A DNA stretch of 38,657 nucleotides, from positions 1-38,657 of the forward strand of contig JACPBN010000041.1 of NCBI GenBank assembly GCA_016180275.1, written 5' to 3'. Below, piece after piece: positions 4,612 to 19,235 of this stretch. Each line of letters starts with the position of its first letter. Position 1 is the first letter of the stretch. The stretch is from Candidatus Woesearchaeota archaeon (GTDB lineage: Archaea > Nanobdellota > Nanobdellia > Woesearchaeales > UBA10200). Both the position numbers and the translations under genes were made by a program. The notes under the pieces were generated by a model that searched no databases, had not been told where the DNA came from, and was given only the letters and a program-made list of their open reading frames with translations.

Positions 4612-4695
4612 GGTTATCCTATATTAATGATTCAGTAGATTAACTGTAGTTTAGAATAGTTTATTTAAATGTTGTTGTAACGAAGTTCTAAAATT

Positions 4696-4954
4696 GTATT
4701 TGTTTAGCTCATGTGATAATCTATTCAAAAGCGGTGGCGACTGCCGACGAACACTAATTTAGTTCATCAATGAGTTGCTCCTCCTCTACGTTTAGAAAGT
4801 AGATGTGAGAATAGAAATGTATTGTGTGTTGTGTTACTTGAGGTTTAACTAGATAGCATCGCCCGTCGCAACTTAGCAGGGTTATTGTGGATTTGTGTTC
4901 GTCATAATTTGGCAGTCGCCACCGCTTTTAATTTTAGTGTAGCTAAACAAATAC
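4696..4954. repeat. Outer 14-bp perfect inverted repeat flanking ncRNA copy A
   Basis: GTATTTGTTTAGCT (4696-4709) and AGCTAAACAAATAC (4941-4954). Confidence 0.7.
4727..4929 (+). ncRNA. Novel structured RNA, copy A
   Basis: 19-bp perfect terminal stem AAAAGCGGTGGCGACTGCC/GGCAGTCGCCACCGCTTTT and 9-bp GACGAACAC/GTGTTCGTC. Core blocks AGTTGCTCCTCCTCTAC, TGTGAGAATAGAAA and GCCCGTCGCAAC are shared with copy B. Confidence 0.8.
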
Positions 4955-5019
4955 CTAAAATTTAATAATTATAGAATATATCACAGGCCATATTTCTCCA
5001 CAACCTTTATATACCTTTA

Positions 5020-5643
5020 GTGTATAATCATCAACTAAAGGTGTATAATATGCTCTTGACTATTAAGGAAAAGCTTGTATTGAGGACATTATCTGCTGGC
5101 ATTAATAGTGATTACTCTATTAACCAAATAGCTGAGCAATGCAATTTAAGCCCGAATGGCGCATACAAATTACTGAAAAAGCTTGAAAAGGAAGGCATCC
5201 TTAAAGTAAAGCAGATTGCGAACATTAAAAGCTACAGGCTAAATTTTGATGATGAAAAAACAGAGAGAATACTGGCATTAGCATTGATGCCTGATGAATT
5301 AGATGAAAGAGTAAGGAATCGCTCACAGGACTTAAAAGAACTAAAGGATGTAACAGCTGCCTGCATACTATTTGGTTCATATATTACATCAAAGCAGAAG
5401 CCTAATGATTTAGATGTGTTATTCATGCTTGAAAAGAAGAATTTTAATTCATACAAAAAAAATTTAGCAAAGGTTCAAGACATTATGCCTGTTAAAATAC
5501 ATGATGTTATACAAACAAGAGATGATTTAACGCAAAATTTAAAGAAGAATGACCCAATAATCACTCAGACCATACTTAAAGGCATGGTGCTTTGGGGCTT
5601 TGATGCATTAGTTGAGAGGATTAAAAATGCCGCAAAAGATTGA
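5020..5643 (+). CDS. wHTH + minimal nucleotidyltransferase (MNT) protein; start may be 5050
   Basis: N-terminal wHTH (YSINQIAEQCNLSPNGAYKLLKKLEKEGIL) and the NTase signature LFGSYITSKQKPNDLDVLF. Confidence 0.8.
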   Translation: MYNHQLKVYNMLLTIKEKLVLRTLSAGINSDYSINQIAEQCNLSPNGAYKLLKKLEKEGILKVKQIANIKSYRLNFDDEKTERILALALMPDELDERVRNRSQDLKELKDVTAACILFGSYITSKQKPNDLDVLFMLEKKNFNSYKKNLAKVQDIMPVKIHDVIQTRDDLTQNLKKNDPIITQTILKGMVLWGFDALVERIKNAAKD

Positions 5644-6142
5644 TGAAAAGCTTAGAAAGTGCTTTGATGAAGGAAAAAAAGGAAGTGAGCGCCATAAAGG
5701 ATTGATAAGATCTAATCCTGATTTAAGCAAATCAGAAGCATATTTAGCTAAAGCTTTGCATAATTTTAATGCAATAACAGATTTCCATGATTTAGGGTAT
5801 AGTGACTGGAGTGCAAGCGCATCATTTTATTCACTATATGTTGGGTTGCTTGCAATTCTTGCTAAACGAGGTTATGAGTCAAGAAACCAGTCATGCACAT
5901 TTGCACTTGTGGAAGACTTAATCATTAAAGGAGAAATAAAGACGCTGACTACAAACAATATTAAAGAGATTTTTGATAAAGAGGTAGCAACTGATCTGGC
6001 GCATAGCGCAAAAATACTTGATATCCGGGAAAAGATGCAATATTCTACCAAAACATCTTTGGAAGAGATGGAATTTCAAAGCTTAAAGAATAGGACAAAA
6101 GAATTGCTTGATAAGATAAGGCTGGAGCTTGAGAAAAAATAG
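5627..6142 (+). CDS. HEPN-like protein paired with MNT
   Basis: Overlaps the MNT gene end; all-helical sequence with LSKSEAYLAKALHNFNAITDF, SASFYSLYVGLLAILAKRGYESRNQS. ATG at 5627 gives MPQKIDEKL. Confidence 0.7.
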   Translation: MPQKIDEKLRKCFDEGKKGSERHKGLIRSNPDLSKSEAYLAKALHNFNAITDFHDLGYSDWSASASFYSLYVGLLAILAKRGYESRNQSCTFALVEDLIIKGEIKTLTTNNIKEIFDKEVATDLAHSAKILDIREKMQYSTKTSLEEMEFQSLKNRTKELLDKIRLELEKK

Positions 6143-18913: not shown

Positions 18914-18984
18914 ATTTCAATATTGCAAAATAAAGAAGTATATAAACATATATGATGAATAAAGAGGGTATACTTGTATTGCAC

Positions 18985-19172
18985 AGCAGCTGCCGCCAAT
19001 TTAGTTGGCACTAATCCAAAAACAAAGAGAATGTTGCGACGGGCAATGCAATAAAGCTACGAATCAACTAATGCAACACGCAATGCTTTTCTATTCTCAC
19101 ATTTGCTAAACACAATGTAGAGGAGGAGCAACTCTTCGATAATCAATGCCAGTGCCAACGGCGGCAGCTGCT
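18985..19172 (-). ncRNA. Novel structured RNA, copy B
   Basis: 13-bp terminal stem AGCAGCTGCCGCC/GGCGGCAGCTGCT plus 9-bp GTTGGCACT/AGTGCCAAC. On the minus strand it carries AGTTGCTCCTCCTCTAC, TGTGAGAATAGAAA and GCCCGTCGCAAC. Confidence 0.8.
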
Positions 19173-19235
19173 TAGTAAATGTTTTTTAAATACATACTAC
19201 CAATAATAAAAATGTGCAATAAAAAAAAGGCGTAC

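Follow-up and report, generated by a model that had tools for sequence, protein, structure and literature searches.

Two intergenic loci in a 38,657-nucleotide stretch of DNA from a Candidatus Woesearchaeota archaeon (the window; contig JACPBN010000041.1) share short core sequences inside terminal stems of different sequence, and the question is whether this combination marks a functional RNA, as a preliminary description had proposed, or a repeat of another kind. The three core blocks are found at the positions and on the strands given in that description, at 4773-4789, 4804-4817 and 4861-4872 on the plus strand in copy A and at 19117-19133, 19088-19101 and 19033-19044 on the minus strand in copy B. 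Their spacing is also as described, with 14 and 15 nt between the first and second blocks and exactly 43 nt between the second and third in both copies. The terminal stems of copy A consist of a 19-bp helix (H1, 4727-4745 paired with 4911-4929), whose 3′ arm has a run of T at its end, and a 9-bp helix (H2) with the arms GACGAACAC (4746-4754) and GTGTTCGTC (4895-4903), the 3′ arms of the two helices being separated by a one-sided 7-nt bulge, ATAATTT (4904-4910). Copy B has a 13-bp stem, a one-sided 6-nt bulge, TAAATT, and a 9-bp stem, GTTGGCACT/AGTGCCAAC; in both copies the stems agree with the description. Relative to dinucleotide shuffles, the folding z-score is -7.2 for copy A and -4.2 for copy B. 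Only the extent of the two loci needed correction, since the limits first given were slightly too small and the mobile unit spans 4696-4954 in copy A and about 18976-19197 in copy B.

Copy A is a complete class A element of 259 bp on the plus strand, measured from one terminal inverted repeat (TIR) to the other. The left TIR, GTATTTGTTTAGCT, occupies 4696-4709, and the right TIR, AGCTAAACAAATAC, occupies 4941-4954. Comparison of the flanks identifies an 8-bp target-site duplication (TSD), CTAAAATT, at 4688-4695 and again at 4955-4962, so that the locus reads CTAAAATT, GTATTTGTTTAGCT ... AGCTAAACAAATAC, CTAAAATT. Two core boxes provide the arms of a third helix, H3: AGTTGC in AGTTGCTCCTCCTCTAC (4773-4789) is the 5′ arm and GCAACT in GCCCGTCGCAACT (4861-4873) is the 3′ arm. 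The boxes enclose an interior of about 71 nt (4790-4860), which is variable in sequence, near-constant in length and common to several element classes. Copy B is a class B element on the minus strand, with degraded TIRs (GTATGTATTT / GTATTGCACA), no clear TSD and approximate limits (18976-19197). It is absent from the homologous place in G002, one of two sister genomes of the same genus (G001 and G002), while copy A is absent from the homologous place in both sisters, inside a larger absence of 1.47 kb. That stretch (4674-6142), which lies between pyrimidine genes, holds copy A and two open reading frames, an HTH/nucleotidyltransferase frame (5020-5643) and a HEPN frame (5612-6142), which look like an MNT-HEPN toxin-antitoxin pair.

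The two copies belong to a large family. When up to two mismatches are allowed, the host genome contains 75 occurrences of AGTTGCTCCTCCTCTAC, 59 of them exact, and none of its reversed control, so the sequence is repeated far above chance. A covariance model, built on the H2-to-H2′ region from an alignment of 53 full copies, gives 114 matches at E<=1 in the host assembly (1.37 Mb, 76% complete), of which about 105 pass E<=0.001, and at least 20 matches in each of the two sisters. Copies are dispersed in the host genome, with no cassette arrays, and make up about 2% of it (114 copies of about 250 bp). No credible member is found outside the genus in 147 relatives or in 380 genomes across the phylum, two sets that overlap. 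One match of 33.9 bits in a genome of another family (G039) is judged to be chance, as the DNA there looks coding and lacks the core boxes. When one genome per GTDB species is scanned for the two boxes together, the records are those of Candidatus Woesearchaeota plus three matches, in one Nitrososphaerales, one Streptomyces and one Myxococcus contig, which are also attributed to chance because the covariance model is silent there. The viral contigs scanned give no match. No model of Rfam release 15 reaches its gathering threshold anywhere in the window, and around copy A a scan with a permissive cut-off gives only weak chance matches to microRNA and snoRNA models. Among the papers searched in full text, none joins Woesearchaeota with "miniature inverted-repeat". 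The family, with more than 100 short mobile elements, is real and, so far as checked, undescribed.

The termini indicate how the copies came to be dispersed. Units are 220-260 bp long. At least six kinds of TIR (A-F) occur on the same body, though some copies lack them. Length is tight within a class, mostly 258-259 bp in class A and 222-228 bp in class B. In many copies, copy A included, 8-bp TSDs flank the TIRs, and 26 clear TSDs are 82% A+T; in many other copies neither a TIR nor a TSD can be recognised. A scan of 169 copies for TIRs with TSDs at a loose threshold yields 80 real cases against an average of 46 in swapped-flank controls, and because of this background reliance is placed on the cases with strong TIRs. 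For one class F copy, G001 shows the empty site exact to the base: the filled site, AAATTTTGTCTTTTTTA followed by a 251-bp insert and CTTTTTTAAGGAGATTG, corresponds to AAATTTTGTCTTTTTTAATGAGATTG in the sister, and the TSD is CTTTTTTA. About 17 sites can be compared between species. At roughly 11 of them the other species has an empty site, and six are shared, some of the latter with differing classes or orientations in the two species. Replacement in place was considered for L053/L135 and rejected, as the duplications there point to two insertions that occurred separately, at places about 8 bp from each other. Taken together, the TIRs, the 8-bp TSDs and the empty sites identify the copies as transposable elements. 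The host has 95 class A TIRs and the sisters have only 13 and 5, which indicates that classes amplify lineage by lineage. Many host contigs stop about 90 bp inside a TIR, and contig breaks inside repeats are expected where the repeats are young. Besides these six, GAGTCGCCTTAAT...TTTTTAGGCGACTC is probably another terminal type; it is seen in the sisters (L151, L165 and L109) and in the host (L054 and L086).

Although the termini vary, the unit keeps a layered arrangement: from outside to inside, TIR, AT-rich spacer, H1, 3′ bulge, H2, linkers, H3 and interior. H1 is about 11-19 bp long with a class-dependent sequence, the one-sided 3′ bulge is near-constant, mostly 6-7 nt, and H2 has 9 bp. The interior of about 71 nt is bounded by the boxes TCCTCCTCTAC and TGCCCG. 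Two-sided changes occur in 17 of the 19 predicted pairs of H1 and H2, and when five H3 pairs are added, 95.0% of cells pair against 78.0% after shuffling; sliding of the partner strand abolishes this pairing. H3 is AGTTGC/GCAACT in most copies, and its arms co-vary as GTTGC/GCAAC, GTTAC/GTAAC, GTTTC/GAAAC and GTTTT/AAAAC. An 8-bp form, GTTTCGGC/GCCGAAAC, also exists, and in one subfamily H3 is GTTGTGCT/AGCCCTAC, with only partial pairing. These results bear out the claim that the family is repeated, intergenic and structured, that its stems covary on both sides and that Rfam has no match for it. Beyond H3, no convincing covarying pairs are found inside the interior. In 32 of 130 copies one bottom-strand frame runs open through the interior; a coding reading is nevertheless rejected because the interior varies in length by 1-2 nt and the remaining frames are open near expectation; without a conserved reading frame, the interior has no coding capacity. 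Smaller palindromic repeats were seen as well. One of them, CAAATTTTACGAAAATTTGATAAAAGTGTGCGGCATAAAGCCGCACTAGACGA, occupies the same core place in L083, L084, L085, L088:3596 and L098 and is truncated in L081:6064 and L094, and another, TTGAAAATCATTTTTAATCATTAAAAATGATTTTGCAAAA, is present at L052:2635 and L044:8638.

Pairing of this kind may be kept in RNA or in DNA, and the stems themselves help to distinguish the two. In a selected RNA, G-U pairs should exceed A-C mismatches on the transcribed strand. The 100 unique H1 stems contain 1501 Watson-Crick pairs, 32 G-U, 40 A-C and 39 others (p=0.41), and in H2, over all copies, G-U pairs number 25 and A-C mismatches 39. Since neither stem has a bias of G-U over A-C, the covariation is without an RNA-strand signature, and covariation is equally expected of inverted-repeat DNA. 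Given these stems, together with the TIRs, the 8-bp TSDs and the empty sites, the step from covariation to a functional RNA in the preliminary description is unsupported. A structured non-coding RNA, regulator or terminator could still be the selected unit, with a putative transcript on the reader's strand that would adopt the H1-H3 fold and end at the T-run after H1, the mobile ends being its carriers. The boxes, the geometry and the H3 pairing are indeed constant across classes and in three species while the termini change, and bacterial MITE transcripts with stem-loops and MITE-derived small RNAs are known (PMC10969869). There is one hint in favour of the reader's strand, since 22 of the 27 informative stem classes have a longer T-run after H1 than A-run before it (p=0.0015), but this is a post hoc test and the asymmetry is lost when copies are counted instead of classes (p=0.38). 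The G-U preference is missing on both strands, the orientation of flanking genes is mixed without strong bias (++36, --54, +-32, -+23), and neither the interior, in which convincing covarying pairs are lacking, nor Rfam lends the idea support, so that an RNA as the selected unit is unlikely. The symmetry of the arms may, alternatively, arise from DNA mechanics and not from selection, if template switching or arm-to-arm repair restores complementarity in fold-back DNA. The 93% share of Watson-Crick pairs in H1 (1501/1612), with very few G-U, and the switching of whole arms together between classes are as such repair would produce, even though the conserved, non-palindromic core boxes and the near-constant 6-7 nt bulge are unaccounted for by it. 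As a full account of the covariation it is a possibility of modest weight, and it could act jointly with transposition.

The evidence strongly favours reading the copies as MITE-like, non-autonomous DNA transposons (MITE, miniature inverted-repeat transposable element) that form a family at the level of the genus. Such a unit, of about 220-260 bp with short TIRs and no protein, would insert in AT-rich, mostly intergenic DNA through an 8-bp staggered cut and would be moved in trans by a DDE transposase, presumably absent from the incomplete genomes or unassembled in them. In ordinary MITEs the termini are the best-conserved part. The pattern here is the reverse, with the interior kept and the termini and stem sequences diverging. 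A transposon, which the preliminary description had listed among the findings that would tell against its RNA reading, accounts for much of the conservation, namely the dispersal and, in part, the symmetry of the arms, but not for the conserved core, whose role transposition alone leaves unexplained. The folded core, made up of the three helices with the boxes TCCTCCTCTAC and TGCCCG, may persist because mobilisation or recognition makes use of the fold-back DNA. A further proposal, which we regard as rather improbable, is that the folded core is an RNA or DNA module selected genus-wide on several terminus types, its 71-nt interior being swapped as a cassette via the boxes.

Exchange of interiors has traces in the copies themselves. 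Identical interiors, extending up to 60 nt from the core box, occur in copies with different arms and TIRs, which indicates that interiors pass from one class to another; the simplest route is recombination through the conserved boxes. On the transposon reading, copies of the family would swap interiors in this way by means of their identical core boxes. The same identity from the core box on, in units with different ends, together with the conserved fold, the variable stems and the one-sided unpaired bases, would also suit sites at which site-specific recombination uses a folded single strand, as at the attC sites of integrons. The 8-bp duplications, the exact empty sites and the dispersal of the copies outside cassette arrays make these sites a highly improbable account of the family, and as a mode of insertion they are largely refuted. 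Two copies, L113 and L125, are chimeras in which the left arm is of class B and the right arm of class A or D. Their arms of different classes (L113:19371-19576 and L125:9301-9502) are possible junctions of rearrangements between copies, as is L158:5007-5168, where the left flank repeats a right arm.

No mobiliser was found in the genomes searched. For an autonomous element, inverted TIR pairs at 1-3 kb were sought for class A in three genomes and for class B in the host, and none was present. Repeated DNA of transposase size is also absent from the examined stretches, except in L026, where two direct repeats of 0.7 kb with 71% identity (1207-1912 and 2235-2940) lie on either side of an element copy. 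Models of IS6, IS1595 and ISL3 detect no transposase with matching ends in the three genomes, which are 64-76% complete, and the ISL3 model has no match in them at all. Since class D TIRs start with GGCACT, an IS6-family MITE was considered and set aside for want of an IS6 partner: PF13610 (IS6, DDE_Tnp_IS240) has no match in G000, G001 or G002, although the same search is positive in control genomes, an absence that is not final because the assemblies are incomplete. The three genomes hold one IS1595 gene, in G002 (L189, contig C85, at the contig end), which was rejected as mobiliser because its ends start with GGTGATT and so have other termini.

Mobile repeats are little described in Woesearchaeota, and this family breaks the host assembly and differs in position between close species. 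Its conserved interior and diverging ends raise the question of what the interior is for. It also calls for caution, because transposon inverted repeats can give strong covariation in repeated intergenic DNA without a functional RNA. The family is apparently a variant of MITEs and not a demonstrated RNA gene. Like prokaryotic MITEs, including Sulfolobus SM1-SM4, its members are small and non-coding, with TIRs, TSDs, AT-rich intergenic targets, stable stem-loops and many copies. Unlike them, they have a conserved interior core and at least six TIR types, and no parental insertion sequence was found in the genomes searched; the 114 matches in 1.37 Mb also compare with a reported 25-44 copies per family in Sulfolobus (PMC10969869). 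ERIC and Correia elements of bacteria are likewise palindromic and dispersed between genes, and some of their hosts have more than 100 of them in one genome (PMC10969869); they differ in host and sequence. The 8-bp duplications set the present family apart from them, as do, by description alone, the layered H1/bulge/H2/H3 arrangement and the terminal classes. Integron attC sites resemble it in having a conserved fold, variable stem sequence and one-sided extrahelical bases. However, the complementary boxes of attC are terminal, and attC sites lie in cassette arrays and lack a target duplication, whereas here the complementary boxes are internal, insertion duplicates 8 bp and the copies form no cassette arrays.
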